Shown piece after piece: positions 18,621-24,183 of a stretch of 64,000 nucleotides of DNA. Position 1 is the first letter of the stretch, and the number at the start of each line of letters is the position of its first letter. A program made the position numbers and the translations under genes. The stretch is from Deltaproteobacteria bacterium (GTDB lineage: Bacteria; Desulfobacterota; Desulfobulbia; Desulfobulbales; Desulfurivibrionaceae): NCBI GenBank assembly GCA_021802775.1, contig JAJZRJ010000001.1:62001-126000 (forward strand), written 5' to 3'. The notes beneath the pieces were generated by a model. The model saw only the letters and a list, made by a program, of their open reading frames with translations. It did no database searches and had not been told where the DNA came from.

Positions 18621-20270
18621 ATGAAAATCGCCCTTATCCAATACAATCCGGTCATCGGCGATTTCCGCCGCAACAGCGGGGCCATTCGCCACTGGGCGGA
18701 AAAGGCCAGGGCCGCCGGTTGCGATCTGGCGATCTTTCCGGAACTGGCCTTGAGCGGCTACCCGCCCCAGGACCTGCTGGAACGCCCCGCCTTTCTCGTT
18801 GACCACGACCGCGCCCTCCACCACCTGGTGGCCGGCATCTCCGGCATCGGCGTGATTCTGGGCGCCGTGACCCGCCACACCGGCGCCACCGGCAAAACCC
18901 TCCACAACAGCGCCATGCTCTTTGAAAACGGCGCCATCCTGGTCACGGCCTGCAAACGGCTGTTGCCCACCTACGATGTCTTTGACGAGGCGCGCTACTT
19001 CGAGCCGGCACGCGAGAGCCGGATCGTTGCCTACAAGGGACTCCGGCTCGGCCTCACGGTCTGCGAGGACATCTGGAACGACCCCGACTTCTTCCCGCGG
19101 CCGCTCTACGCTATCGACCCGGTGGCCGAACTCGCCGCCAGCGGTCTCGATTGCCTCATCAATATCGCCGCCTCGCCCTTCCACCAAGGCAAGCGGCTGA
19201 TCCGGCAGGGAATCTTCGCCAACCTCTGCACCCGCCATCACCTGCCGCTGCTCTATGTGAATCAGGTCGGGGGGCAGGATTCGCTGATCTTCGACGGTGG
19301 CTCGCTGGCCATGAACCGGAGCGGCGCCATCGTCGCCCAGGCCCGCCACTTCAGCGAGGATATGGTCATCGTCGATACCGCCTTCTGGCGGGGCGAGCTG
19401 CGCGAAGAGCCGGCCACGCCCCTGGCCGCGGCCGAAGTCTGCCAGGCCCTGATCCTCGGCACCCATGACTACGTGACCAAGTGCGGCTTCAAAAAGGTGG
19501 TGATCGGTCTCAGTGGCGGCATCGACTCGGCGCTCACCGCCGCCATCGCGACCCAGGCCCTGGGACCGGCCAGCGTGCTGGGAGTGGCCATGCCCTCGCC
19601 CTACACCGCCCCGGAGAGCATCGCGGATGCCGAGACCCTGGCCAAAAATCTCGGCATCGGCTTTACCCTGCTGCCCATCACCCCGCTGGTCGAGGCCTAC
19701 CAGGCCAGCCTGGCCCCGCTTTTTGCCGGCCGGCCGGCGGACGTCACCGAACAGAACATCCAGGCCCGCATCCGCGGCAACCTGCTCATGGCCATCGCCA
19801 ACAAGGAAGGGCGGCTGGTGCTCTCCACCGGCAACAAGAGCGAGATGGCAGTGGGCTACTGCACCCTCTACGGCGACATGAGCGGGGGGCTGGCCATGCT
19901 GGCCGACGTGCCCAAGATGCTGGTCTACGAACTGGCCCGCTATCTGAACCGGGAAACAATCGTCATCCCGCAGCGCACCATCGACCGGGCGCCCACCGCG
20001 GAACTCAAGCCCGACCAGCGCGACGAGGACGACCTGCCACCCTACCCCATCCTCGACCAGATTCTGACCGCCTACCTGGAAGAGCATAAGCCGGTGGCGG
20101 AAATCATCGCCATGGGCTTTGACCCGGCCGTGGTCCACGACGTGGTGCGCCGCATCCGCATAAACGAATACAAACGCAAGCAGGCGCCGGTCGGGCTCAA
20201 GGTCACCTCCAAGGCCTTTGGCTACGGCCGCCGCTACCCCACGGCCGAGCATTACCTGGAGGGCGCGTGA
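18621..20270 (+). CDS. nadE: Glutamine-dependent NAD+ synthetase
   Basis: 549 residues with two domains. The N-terminal nitrilase-type glutaminase (1-270) has its Glu in 'IFPELALSGYPPQDLL', its Lys in 'CKRLLPTYDVFDEARYF' and its Cys in 'LTVCEDIWND'. The C-terminal synthetase (290-549) has the PP-loop 'GLSGGIDSALTAAIA', 'LSTGNKSEMAVGYCTLYGD' and 'RAPTAELKPDQRDEDDLPPY'. It makes NAD+ from deamido-NAD+, ATP and glutamine. nadA, which acts earlier in the pathway, is elsewhere in this window (35.3 kb). The stop overlaps the GTG start of the multiheme cytochrome gene. Confidence 0.97.
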   Translation: MKIALIQYNPVIGDFRRNSGAIRHWAEKARAAGCDLAIFPELALSGYPPQDLLERPAFLVDHDRALHHLVAGISGIGVILGAVTRHTGATGKTLHNSAMLFENGAILVTACKRLLPTYDVFDEARYFEPARESRIVAYKGLRLGLTVCEDIWNDPDFFPRPLYAIDPVAELAASGLDCLINIAASPFHQGKRLIRQGIFANLCTRHHLPLLYVNQVGGQDSLIFDGGSLAMNRSGAIVAQARHFSEDMVIVDTAFWRGELREEPATPLAAAEVCQALILGTHDYVTKCGFKKVVIGLSGGIDSALTAAIATQALGPASVLGVAMPSPYTAPESIADAETLAKNLGIGFTLLPITPLVEAYQASLAPLFAGRPADVTEQNIQARIRGNLLMAIANKEGRLVLSTGNKSEMAVGYCTLYGDMSGGLAMLADVPKMLVYELARYLNRETIVIPQRTIDRAPTAELKPDQRDEDDLPPYPILDQILTAYLEEHKPVAEIIAMGFDPAVVHDVVRRIRINEYKRKQAPVGLKVTSKAFGYGRRYPTAEHYLEGA

Positions 20271-22030
20271 AAAGGCGCTCCCCCCGCTGGGCCATCCTCG
20301 GCGTGCTGCTGGTGGTCTTGGTCCTCGTCATCCGCGAGAATCGCGCCAAGCGGCCGGCGAAACTCCCGCAGCTCGCCAGCGGCCAGGTGGAGATGTGCCT
20401 CTCCTGCCATAAGGAACGGCTCGACCCGGCCCACGATGCGCCGGTGCTGGGCTGCGCCGCCTGCCACCTCGGCAATCCGCTCGCCATCGGCAAAGAGACT
20501 GCGCATCGGGGCATCGTCAAGAACCCCGGCGACCTGCGGGTGGTGGAGAAGACCTGCGGGGTCGAAGGCTGCCACGCCCAGGACGTGAAGAAGGTCAAGA
20601 ACTCGCTGATGGCCACCAACCGCGGCATCCTCGCCACCCTGCTTTATTACTGGAAGGAGGCGCCGGACCAGCATGGCGATTTCTCGGTGGAGCAGCTCAT
20701 CAAGAGCGGCGAGACCTCGCTCGCCATCGACTACTACCGCAAGCTCTGCGCCACCTGCCACCTGTGGAAGGAAAAGGGCGACATGGAGGGCTTTTTCGGC
20801 GAAAAGGGCGGCGGCTGCACTGCCTGCCACCATGTGCGGCCCCAGACCCCCACTGCCGAGCGGCCGTGGGAGACCTTTCTCCGCTTCAGCGGCCTCAAAC
20901 CGCAGCAGAGGCCGCATCCGCACATCGTGAAAAAGGTGCCCACGGAAAACTGCGTGCGCTGCCACAACCGGAGCGGCCGGGTCGGCACCTCCTATCTCGG
21001 CATCTACGAGGGCGAGAACTACGGCACCCCCTATAAGGGCGGCAAGCCCGCAGCGAACGAACTGCCCGGCGACCGCTTCTACCTCGAACTGCCGGACGAC
21101 ATCCACCACAAGCAGGGCATGGCCTGCATCGACTGCCACACCCGCGACGAGATCATGGGCGACGGCAAGCGCCACGCCCACTACGAGCAGGCCCTGGAGA
21201 TCGGCTGTGGCGTCTGCCACAACCGGAACTTGCCGGCCAAGACCAGAAAGGGCAAGGAACTCAACAACGTCAAGATCGTGGACGGCAAACCGGCCTTGAT
21301 CGGCAAGCTCGACAACAATCCCCGCCCCCTCAACCCGCCCAAACCGGGGATCTGCGATTACCAGGGCCACAAGCGCCTCACCTGCGAGGCGTGCCATTCC
21401 GACTGGGTGCCGCAGTGCTACGGCTGCCACGTGAAGCGCGACCTGCGCGAGACCCATCTCGACAAGCTCACCGGCAAGGAGACGCCGGGCTGGTGGGACG
21501 AGGGCCGCTCCTATCTGCGCTACGAACGGCCGATGCTCGCGGTGTGGGGCGAGGAGGTGGTCATCGTCACCCCTGGCTGCCAGGACATCGTCACCCTGAT
21601 CGACAAGGAGGGCAAGCCCGCAGGCGGCTTCAATTCCCTCACCATGGCGGCCCTCAACCCGCACACCACCGCCAAGAAGGGCAAAACGTGCGCCGACTGC
21701 CATACCAAGACCAAGGTGATGGGCCTGGGCGAGGGCACGGCGTGGAAGGAAAAAGGCGAGTGGCGCTTTGCCCCGCTTGACCAGGGCGTGCAGACCGCCC
21801 ACGGCCAGACGCCGCCGCTGGACGGCTACGTGGACATCAACGGCAAGCCGCTGCAGAAAAGCGCCCGCCCCGATCTGCGGCCCTTCAATAAGGAGGAGAT
21901 CAGCCGCATCCTGCGGGTCGGCCAGTGCCTGCCCTGCCACAAAGATTATAACGACAAGATTTACAAGGACTATACGCCCGAAAAGAAATGTCCGGTGTTT
22001 GATGAGGAGAGCGGGACGACGAGGCGGTAG
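20267..22030 (+). CDS. Membrane-anchored multiheme cytochrome c (about 12 hemes)
   Basis: 587 residues from a GTG that overlaps the nadE stop. An N-terminal helix ('WAILGVLLVVLVLVI') anchors or exports the protein. There are eleven CXXCH heme sites (CLSCH, CAACH, CATCH, CTACH, CVRCH, CIDCH, CGVCH, CEACH, CYGCH, CADCH, CLPCH) and one CX4CH site (CGVEGCH), giving up to twelve hemes. Many extra His residues could be distal ligands. Long spacers (for example between CGVCH and CEACH) suggest more than an electron wire and leave room for an active site. I cannot assign a substrate; a periplasmic oxidoreductase or electron-transfer module is the safe call. Cytochrome maturation genes are not in the window. 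Confidence 0.9.
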   Translation: MKRRSPRWAILGVLLVVLVLVIRENRAKRPAKLPQLASGQVEMCLSCHKERLDPAHDAPVLGCAACHLGNPLAIGKETAHRGIVKNPGDLRVVEKTCGVEGCHAQDVKKVKNSLMATNRGILATLLYYWKEAPDQHGDFSVEQLIKSGETSLAIDYYRKLCATCHLWKEKGDMEGFFGEKGGGCTACHHVRPQTPTAERPWETFLRFSGLKPQQRPHPHIVKKVPTENCVRCHNRSGRVGTSYLGIYEGENYGTPYKGGKPAANELPGDRFYLELPDDIHHKQGMACIDCHTRDEIMGDGKRHAHYEQALEIGCGVCHNRNLPAKTRKGKELNNVKIVDGKPALIGKLDNNPRPLNPPKPGICDYQGHKRLTCEACHSDWVPQCYGCHVKRDLRETHLDKLTGKETPGWWDEGRSYLRYERPMLAVWGEEVVIVTPGCQDIVTLIDKEGKPAGGFNSLTMAALNPHTTAKKGKTCADCHTKTKVMGLGEGTAWKEKGEWRFAPLDQGVQTAHGQTPPLDGYVDINGKPLQKSARPDLRPFNKEEISRILRVGQCLPCHKDYNDKIYKDYTPEKKCPVFDEESGTTRR

Positions 22031-22320: not shown

Positions 22321-22465
22321 TCGACGCTCTTGTGACCAGCCCCCTACTTTCCGGCTTCGGGCGGGTCATCCTGCGGTTGCCGCACCGTGACGCGGTCTTT
22401 TACGGAACATATCCTGCGCGTTTGTTACGGGCAGACAAGAAAGTTCTTTTGAAGGGGCTTTGTGT

Positions 22466-23032
22466 ATGGCAATTACCAGCAAGGAAATCAACCCGGCCTT
22501 CAGCGGCGAGGTCACCGCGCAACCTGGCGGCGAGAACCTGAACCGCTGCTACTCTTGCGGGGCATGCAGCGGCGTCTGCCCGGTCAGCCAGGCCATCCCG
22601 GATTTTGACCCCCGGCGGCTCATCCACATGATCCGCATGGGACTCAAAGAAAAGTTGCTCTCCTCGGAGCTGCTCTGGTTCTGCTCCAAGTGCCGGAGCT
22701 GCGTCTTCGTCTGCCCGCAGGATGTCCGCTTCGCCGACATCGTGGGCGCGCTGCGCAGCTTAGCCATGGAGCAGGGCTACGTCTCCGTGCAGGATCTGCT
22801 CGACAAAGGCAAGGCCGCCTGGGTGGAGCGCGACCTCTGCGTCTCTTGCCTCACCTGCGTGCGCGTCTGCCCGTGGCGGATTCCGAGGATCGACGCCGAG
22901 GGCAAGGCAGCCATCGACCCGAAGCAATGCCGTGCCTGTGGTATCTGCCCGGCGGAATGCCCGGCCCAGGCGATCCGGCTCAACCAGTCTGAAGACGAGC
23001 GGCTGCTCGCCGCCTGCGGCACCGGTAAGTGA
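22466..23032 (+). CDS. HdrC-like iron-sulfur protein with four [4Fe-4S] motifs
   Basis: 188 residues from the ATG at 22466, with GAAGGGG 7 bases upstream. Four complete CX2CX2CX3CP motifs are present at residues 28-38, 73-83, 125-135 and 155-165. The first two, with 'DFDPRRLIHMIRMGL' between them, match heterodisulfide reductase subunit C; the last two form a bacterial dicluster ferredoxin domain. So HdrC is fused to a ferredoxin here. It should pass electrons inside a soluble complex. mvhD and metV follow closely, as in HdrABC-MvhD-MetVF complexes of acetogens, but HdrA and HdrB are not in the window. Confidence 0.88.
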   Translation: MAITSKEINPAFSGEVTAQPGGENLNRCYSCGACSGVCPVSQAIPDFDPRRLIHMIRMGLKEKLLSSELLWFCSKCRSCVFVCPQDVRFADIVGALRSLAMEQGYVSVQDLLDKGKAAWVERDLCVSCLTCVRVCPWRIPRIDAEGKAAIDPKQCRACGICPAECPAQAIRLNQSEDERLLAACGTGK

Positions 23033-23041
23033 GGTAAGACC

Positions 23042-23518
23042 ATGGCATTCGTTCCCGATATCCAGGCATTCTGTTGTCATTACACCGCCCAGCAATCCTG
23101 CGCCGAAGGCCAGGGAGGGCTTGCGGCCGATGGTTTCCCGCAAAACATCACGATCAACCGGCTGGCCTGCGGTGGCAAACTTGAAGTGACCATGCTGCTC
23201 AAGGCCTTTGAAAACGGAGCGGACGGCGTCTATATGATTGGTTGTCCGACCGACAAATGCCACAATCTCATGGGCAGCCAGCGGGCCGCCAAACGGGTGG
23301 CCGCGGCCAAGAAGGCCCTGGCCGAACTGGGGGTCGAACCCGAGCGCGTTGCCATGTTCCATCTGGAGCGCGGCCTCCATCCGGAGTTCGTCCAGGCCGG
23401 CCGGCAGATGCAGGAGACCATCACCGCCCTCGGCCCGAGCCCGTTTAAAGCTGAGTTGAGCAGCTTGCCTGCTCAAACGAAACTTATGCCCTCTGGGTGC
23501 AAGGGAGGAGCACAATGA
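23042..23518 (+). CDS. mvhD: MvhD/FlpD-family iron-sulfur electron-transfer subunit
   Basis: 158 residues. The opening 'PDIQAFCCHYTA', the middle 'NITINRLACGGKLEVTMLLKAFENGADGVYMIGCP' and 'DKCHNLMGS' match the MvhD family that links a hydrogenase or dehydrogenase to HdrA. The Cys residues (CC near 11-12, C20, the 'ACGG' Cys and the 'GCPTDKCH' pair) would bind a [2Fe-2S] cluster. It starts 9 bases after hdrC, and its stop overlaps the metV start (ATGA). In known systems MvhD transfers electrons into the Hdr core for flavin-based electron bifurcation; here that is inference. Confidence 0.88.
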   Translation: MAFVPDIQAFCCHYTAQQSCAEGQGGLAADGFPQNITINRLACGGKLEVTMLLKAFENGADGVYMIGCPTDKCHNLMGSQRAAKRVAAAKKALAELGVEPERVAMFHLERGLHPEFVQAGRQMQETITALGPSPFKAELSSLPAQTKLMPSGCKGGAQ

Positions 23519-24183
23519 TCATCGCCGAACGCAAACCACTGAACGAAATCATCGAGATGGTCACGGATGCCAAGCGCATCCTGGTCCTGGGCTGCCGCGG
23601 CTGCGTCACCGTCTGCTCCGCCGGCGGCGAACGCGAGGTGGAGATCCTCGCCTCGCTCATTCGCTTGGGCAAGATGAAAGCCGGGCAGCAGTGCGAGGTG
23701 ATCGAGGCCACCCTGGTCCGCCAGTGCGACAAGGAATACGTGGACTCCATCGACCAGTGGGACGGCCAGTATGACGCCATCGTCTCCATGGCCTGCGGGG
23801 TCGGAGTCAACTTCATCGCCAACCTGCGCCCCTGCGACAAGGTTTATCCCGGCGTCAACACCACCGCCTTCGGCGGCTCCGCCGAACAGGGGGTGTGGAG
23901 CGAGCAGTGCGCCGGTTGCGGCGACTGCGTGCTGCACCGCACCGGCGGCCTCTGCCCGGTGGCCCGCTGCGCCAAGAGCCTGATGAACGGCCCGTGCGGC
24001 GGTTCGGTGGGCGGCCGCTGCGAGATCCACCAGGAAGTGCCCTGCATCTGGCAGTCGATCCACGACCGCCTGGAGCGGACCGGCAAGAAGGCCGACATGG
24101 ACCGGATCGCCCCGATCCGCGACTGGAGCACCGCCGGCCACGGCGGCCCGCGCAAGACGGTGCGCAACGACCTGACCGTCTGA
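23515..24183 (+). CDS. metV: MetV-like zinc/iron-sulfur partner of methylene-THF reductase
   Basis: 222 residues from the ATG that overlaps the mvhD stop. It has an N-terminal alpha/beta part with 'VLGCRGCVTVCSAGGERE' and a C-terminal Cys-rich MTHFR_C-like part, 'CAGCGDCVLHRTGGLCPVARCAKSLMNGPCGG', which ends with the typical 'NGPCGGSVGGRCE'. This is the MetV family, which binds zinc and/or Fe-S clusters and partners MetF in reducing methylene-tetrahydrofolate in the Wood-Ljungdahl pathway. No metF follows; the operon ends at a terminator. The partner reductase must be encoded elsewhere if this complex works as in acetogens. Confidence 0.88.
   Translation: MIIAERKPLNEIIEMVTDAKRILVLGCRGCVTVCSAGGEREVEILASLIRLGKMKAGQQCEVIEATLVRQCDKEYVDSIDQWDGQYDAIVSMACGVGVNFIANLRPCDKVYPGVNTTAFGGSAEQGVWSEQCAGCGDCVLHRTGGLCPVARCAKSLMNGPCGGSVGGRCEIHQEVPCIWQSIHDRLERTGKKADMDRIAPIRDWSTAGHGGPRKTVRNDLTV

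Follow-up and report, generated by a model that had tools for sequence, protein, structure and literature searches.

An ExtM-like twelve-heme cytochrome family with predicted selenocysteine and cysteine forms and a putative Rieske/cytochrome b partner

The window, a 64,000-nucleotide stretch of contig JAJZRJ010000001.1 from a deltaproteobacterium of the Desulfurivibrionaceae, contains a gene for a c-type cytochrome with twelve heme motifs that overlaps nadE. Comparison with its relatives leads us to view its product, with a probability of about 0.55, as a periplasmic subunit, anchored in the inner membrane, that contributes twelve hemes and a cysteine/selenocysteine redox site to a minimal Rieske/cytochrome b complex. 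As judged from aligned genes, the family has selenocysteine (Sec) and cysteine forms, the window protein being a cysteine form, because the in-frame TGA of 28 relatives always lies at the column of Cys438, a selenocysteine insertion sequence (SECIS)-like hairpin follows the TGA, and selB is present in all carrier genomes. Gene content likewise identifies the Rieske/cytochrome b pair, and not nadE, as the conserved partner of the cytochrome, and the co-occurrence of the two in sulfur bacteria points to an unrecognised respiratory enzyme.

Results

The Cys438 column

A sample of 395 genomes of the phylum Desulfobacterota was searched, and a genome was counted as a carrier when it contained the twelve-heme cytochrome at a score of at least 254 bits (50 of 395). 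The main alignment has 92 rows, the window protein and 91 relatives, comprising 28 genes with TGA, 55 Cys genes (window gene included) and 9 Cys genes of a third clade. The 55 Cys rows may contain duplicates, because some genomes may be present in two collections. Loci L040 and L047 (fragments), L048 (identical to L003), L001, L002 and L115 are outside this alignment, and L097-L114 and L116 are genes of earlier loci with longer flanks.

Position 438 lies in the motif PG[C/U]QD. A single in-frame TGA occupies this column in 28 of the 92 rows and Cys occupies it in 64, with no other residue. Counting the Sec forms, Cys438 is thus a non-heme cysteine kept in all 92 proteins, and AlphaFold2 places it in a strand of the beta-rich domain, outside every heme motif. 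The window gene has TGC at this position and by codon does not encode a selenoprotein. In a tree of 61 of the 92 rows (row sets A1 and A6 comprise 57 and 50), all TGA genes group in a single clade of 29 rows, in which one Cys gene, L066, is nested. L066 fails the hairpin model described below, as expected for a reversion from Sec to Cys.

Annotation pipelines normally treat TGA as a stop, and the codons in question could be ordinary stops, frameshifts or signs of pseudogenes. We consider this explanation highly improbable. The codon is always TGA and always in one column in 28 genomes, the hairpin is confined to TGA genes, its model is failed by the nested Cys gene, and coding constraint persists past the TGA, with third-position changes dominating in six of the six pairs compared.

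SECIS-like hairpin and Sec machinery

Hairpins were scored with the strict model given in section 5 of PMC13188914, i.e. a loop of 3-9, an unbulged stem of 4-16 bp, a G at loop base 1 or 2, a spacing of 16-37 and an energy of ≤-7.5. Eighteen of the 28 TGA genes matched the model versus 2.5 expected from synonymous shuffles, while only 1 of the 64 Cys genes did so versus 2.1 expected. Relative to synonymous-codon shuffles, the 48 bases from the TGA had a mean folding z of about -1.4 to -1.5, lower than at any other of the 21 positions tested along the genes; values elsewhere in the TGA genes ranged from 0.07 to -0.72, and the same site in Cys genes gave -0.30. Compensatory changes were found in 3 of 6 stem pairs of the main register group (12 sequences), a result as high in 1 of 500 shuffles. 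The second group (9 sequences) was weaker: 2 of 7 pairs compensated and this pair count was equalled in 364 of 500 shuffles, although the cells and score of compensation exceeded most shuffles. An Rfam scan of six Sec loci returned two tRNAs, one sub-threshold match and no SECIS family.

selB scored above the cut-off in all 50 carriers; it is also common in genomes of other bacteria. A strong tRNA-Sec match (>66 bits) was present in 47 of 50 carriers, the others (G163, G346 and G205) having weak matches only. From these sequence data we conclude that the TGA clade has the features of selenoproteins, namely a bacterial SECIS-like hairpin after the TGA together with Sec machinery.

An ExtKL gene with an in-frame TGA is present elsewhere in the window genome (G000:C4:2254-3489, 521 bits), and this genome therefore appears to use selenocysteine. 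In five relatives we observed tRNA-Sec-like genes with the anticodon GCA, which reads Cys codons (L165:602-691, L166:2494-2583, L167:615-704, L168:1479-1568 and L181:231-321). Such a gene lies directly upstream of a second selB in four of five genomes, while the fifth second-selB module (L169) has the anticodon TCA. The GCA genes suggest Sec insertion at Cys codons beside a normal UGA system, for which there is published precedent. Reading of the window TGC codon as Sec by a tRNA of this kind was considered and rejected, as none was among the four hits checked in the window genome.

Heme complement and fold

The open reading frame (ORF) starts with GTG, and its product contains eleven CXXCH motifs and one CX4CH motif (CGVEGCH, residues 97-103). 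In 2000 residue shuffles of the protein, CXXCH occurred 0.05 times on average and at most twice. The 91 aligned relatives all have the CX4CH motif and eleven CXXCH motifs, except that L054 and L084 have ten by pattern. Thus, the heme count of the preliminary description holds, as does its N-terminal anchor, because the AlphaFold2 helix near the N-terminus is consistent with an uncleaved anchor. That description also took the CX4CH motif and long heme-free spacers as signs of a specialised oxidoreductase. The CX4CH motif is simply one of the conserved heme motifs, and the oddity of the protein is instead Cys438, outside any heme motif. The heme-free segment at residues 389-474, which lies in the beta-rich domain with the invariant Cys/Sec, supports the oxidoreductase assignment without proving it.

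The AlphaFold2 model of the window protein had a mean predicted local distance difference test score (pLDDT) of 83.7 and a predicted template modelling score of 0.82, with a pLDDT of 90.5 for the C-terminal half. The invariant residues outside the heme motifs that could act as ligands are H56, H80, H217, H280, H368, H466, M115, M297, K159 and C438. In addition, H305 is found in all main-group Cys rows, 79% of TGA rows and one of nine third-clade rows. With ten candidates for twelve hemes there is room for open sites, and Cys438 is itself a plausible ligand.

A possible heme core shared with multiheme reductases of the NrfA, octaheme tetrathionate reductase or HAO type was considered in the structural and profile comparisons. 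VIA matched the whole model only to octaheme tetrathionate reductase (1sp3; Z 7.0, root-mean-square deviation 4.5 over 266 residues, a similarity that can arise without kinship) and OcwA, and the C-terminal half to 1sp3 (Z 3.4) and ribokinase (2.1), all too weak for a claim. Alignment of the family with octaheme tetrathionate reductase by hhalign gave 94% over 88 columns. Foldseek found no match in the PDB at E≤0.001 for either the whole model or the C-terminal half, and a single-sequence search of solved structures returned two unusable cytochrome c7 matches (E 0.6-0.7).

Family assignment

The preliminary description had offered no family name; a profile search supplies one. The best NCBIfam match of the window protein is ExtM (NF040943), at 312.4 bits compared to a curated cut-off of 800, and five relatives that were scanned scored 289-323 bits. 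Pfam gave generic c3/c7 matches only. Because 312 bits is far from 800, these profile scores place the window protein as ExtM-like, a distant relative of ExtM, and we do not file it as ExtM. Geobacter ExtM (GSU2935 type) is the twelve-heme protein of the ext cluster, which also encodes a Rieske protein, ExtO, and a cytochrome b, ExtP (PMC5877670). The two proteins share twelve hemes and a similar length, and the profile match extends along most of the window protein. However, an extHIJKLMNOPQS-type cluster was not found at the window gene, which is flanked by nadE and by an HdrC/MvhD/MetV group. Selenocysteine is not reported for ExtM in the part of PMC5877670 considered here.

The NCBI name of ExtM would make the window protein a selenite/tellurite reductase or a detoxification enzyme. 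NF040943 is the best model, and loss of extI in Geobacter sulfurreducens impairs the reduction of selenite and tellurite (PMC5877670). We nevertheless judge this function unlikely: the name rests on extI rather than extM, the score is far under the cut-off in a gene without surrounding ext genes, and ExtKL does not track the twelve-heme cytochrome. ExtKL occurs in G195 and G240 without the cytochrome and is missing from several carriers, and it was rejected as a partner for this reason.

Other family names were also discarded. HmcA (NF045713) scored 31 bits compared to a cut-off of 400, and ExtN was ruled out on score or motif. Residues 260-336 (77 positions) are matched to NrfA by the profile of the family (E 8.7e-5); however, NrfA has an active-site CXXCK motif, whereas the window protein has no CXXCK and all twelve of its heme motifs end in His.

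The Rieske/cytochrome b pair and nadE

In the TGA clade the twelve-heme gene often lies after genes for a Rieske protein and a cytochrome b. A profile of this cytochrome b at E≤1e-40 detected 50 of the 395 genomes, exactly the 50 carriers of the cytochrome, which span 18 family labels. The Rieske gene lies beside the cytochrome b gene in 50 of 50 carriers. The pair adjoins the twelve-heme gene in 12 of them (G248, G204, G155, G383, G309, G028, G364, G227, G065, G269, G370 and G129), of which G370 is a Cys genome. The window genome has the two genes together at G000:C68:256-654 and 707-1495. The partner cytochrome b has 270 residues and matches ExtP at 65 bits compared to a cut-off of 290. An alignment of nine sequences retains four His residues (56, 70, 154 and 169) and a PWF motif, which we take to represent two b hemes and a quinol site.

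The product of nadE is a glutamine-dependent NAD synthetase (NF010588, 684 bits versus a cut-off of 479). The preliminary description had called the cytochrome coupled to nadE. At the level of DNA this is correct, as the genes overlap by four bases (GTGA, 20267-20270) and nadE lies directly upstream of the cytochrome gene in 42 of the 54 Desulfobulbales-type loci with room upstream (genome G145 was entered twice). Functional coupling is a weak proposition, because nadE is not there in the other 12 loci, cable bacteria included, and was not seen in any fetched stretch from the Sec clade or the third clade. On these grounds NadE was rejected as a functional partner. The idea that the two proteins work together in NAD metabolism is barely conceivable and already largely refuted, NadE being cytoplasmic and the cytochrome periplasmic. 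The pairing is restricted to this bacterial order and is probably incidental.

Other features and related genes

The features of the two overlapping genes are collected in Table 1. Downstream, positions 22460-24183 of the window contain a row of HdrC-like ferredoxin, MvhD-like and MetV-like (DUF5981) genes that resembles methylenetetrahydrofolate reductase modules.

Table 1. Positions of nadE, the cytochrome gene and its parts in the window
Feature	Position	Strand	Basis
nadE, overlapping neighbour; order-specific pairing, probably outside the system	18621..20270	+	profile match
Dodecaheme c-type cytochrome, ExtM-like (Cys form; 587 aa)	20267..22030	+	ORF, profile match, alignment
N-terminal membrane anchor, residues 6-26	20282..20344	+	helix in AlphaFold2 model
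Heme motif 1, CLSCH	20396..20410	+	sequence
Heme motif 2, CAACH	20453..20467	+	sequence
Heme motif 3, CGVEGCH (CX4CH)	20555..20575	+	sequence; conserved among relatives
Invariant Lys159, possible axial ligand (inferred)	20741..20743	+	alignment
Heme motif 4, CATCH	20747..20761	+	sequence
Heme motif 5, CTACH	20816..20830	+	sequence
Heme motif 6, CVRCH	20951..20965	+	sequence
NrfA-matching stretch of family profile, residues 260-336	21044..21274	+	E=8.7e-5
Heme motif 7, CIDCH	21125..21139	+	sequence
Heme motif 8, CGVCH	21206..21220	+	sequence
Heme motif 9, CEACH	21383..21397	+	sequence
Beta-rich domain, residues 380-505	21404..21781	+	AlphaFold2 models
Heme motif 10, CYGCH	21416..21430	+	sequence
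TGC codon of Cys438; column is TGA (Sec) in 28/92 aligned proteins	21578..21580	+	alignment
Heme motif 11, CADCH	21689..21703	+	sequence
Heme motif 12, CLPCH	21926..21940	+	sequence

Several more distant cytochromes were also observed. A nine-heme cytochrome of the window genome (L115:8683-10188, on G000:C22) is 26% identical to the window protein, lacks the conserved Cys and adjoins genes resembling those of a [NiFe] hydrogenase. A further paralogue group (L145-L154) has twelve CXXCH motifs, no CX4CH motif and a Cys in the motif PGCQ; in several genomes it is co-resident with the main twelve-heme protein.

Discussion

The gene content and sequence conservation described above are consistent with the following scheme for the proposed complex. 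The cytochrome b would oxidise menaquinol and the Rieske protein would hand the electrons to the twelve-heme chain, through which they would arrive at a site in the C-terminal beta domain where Cys/Sec438 would lie next to a heme. This residue may bind or reduce the substrate, or it may be an axial ligand of the heme. Under sulfide-oxidising conditions the direction could reverse. Our best guess for the substrate is a sulfur or selenium compound (polysulfide, sulfur oxyanions or selenite), because this would suit the chemistry of a thiolate or selenolate site and because several carriers have a sulfur-based metabolism. A more specific form of this proposal, which we put forward only as a speculation and consider fairly unlikely, is that Cys/Sec438 axially ligates a c-type heme. 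The TGA clade would then have a natural selenolate-ligated heme that ends the Rieske/cytochrome b chain and carries out sulfur chemistry.

Several points weigh against the proposed complex. Ten of the 28 TGA genes miss the strict SECIS model; nine of these have a stem with a loop G, and L084 has no such stem under these rules. The threshold of E≤1e-40 for cytochrome b was set after the weakest of the 50 matches (3.2e-47) had been seen. Within the window genome the twelve-heme cytochrome and the pair are unlinked, as they lie on different contigs (C8 and C68, respectively). Finally, co-occurrence across genomes is no proof of contact between the twelve-heme protein and the pair.

The twelve-heme protein could instead be an electron wire only, which feeds other periplasmic acceptors from Rieske/cytochrome b and in which Cys/Sec438 tunes one heme. 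Its large heme count would suit this role. In cable bacteria, moreover, ExtM homologues have been reported (PMC11976967) and Rieske/CytB has been proposed to feed periplasmic carriers (PMC12093952). We regard the wire as possible but somewhat doubtful, because the site is invariant in 92 of 92 proteins: Sec is retained in 28 genomes, and Cys is the sole alternative. Tandem ten-heme paralogues of the third clade (three looked at) lack the conserved Cys, indicating that the fold does not need Cys438.

The arrangement proposed for the complex has partial parallels. Anammox complexes combine a Rieske protein and a cytochrome b with a hexa- or octaheme cytochrome that replaces cytochrome f; unlike our candidate, they also contain an NAD(P) oxidoreductase, one of them has an HAO-like subunit as well, and Sec is not mentioned in the relevant part of that account (PMC12954380). 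For Caldithrix, it has been proposed that Rieske/cytochrome b is joined with a multiheme cytochrome or supplies it with electrons (PMC5317091).

Two other kinds of multiheme cytochrome provide precedents for Sec. ExtKL (NF040886), for which selenocysteine is predicted, is likewise a multiheme c-type protein with an in-frame TGA, but it has five hemes and belongs to a different family. Octaheme tetrathionate reductase (TIGR04315, PDB 1sp3) has weak fold similarity to the window protein; it differs in having eight hemes and in the position of its Sec, which is before heme 2 and not in the C-terminal domain. Among 24 matches listed for this reductase, ten loci were fetched, and five of these (L155, L158, L159, L162 and L163) have one TGA, at the column of 1sp3 Cys64. 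A 2026 review refers to it as a GenBank-annotated selenoprotein, and in the inventory of 119 prokaryotic selenoprotein families given there, no heme or CXXCH proteins are listed apart from ExtKL, GSU2204 and octaheme tetrathionate reductase (PMC13188914). Neither a Sec form of ExtM nor a Sec/Cys twelve-heme protein with Rieske/cytochrome b was found in searches of open-licence PMC papers.

If the proposed reading is true, the TGA clade would represent an additional selenoprotein family. The reading also provides the Rieske/cytochrome b genes of Desulfobulbales with a candidate for their missing c-type partner. This applies to cable bacteria as well, for which it is still unsettled how electrons leave the quinone pool.

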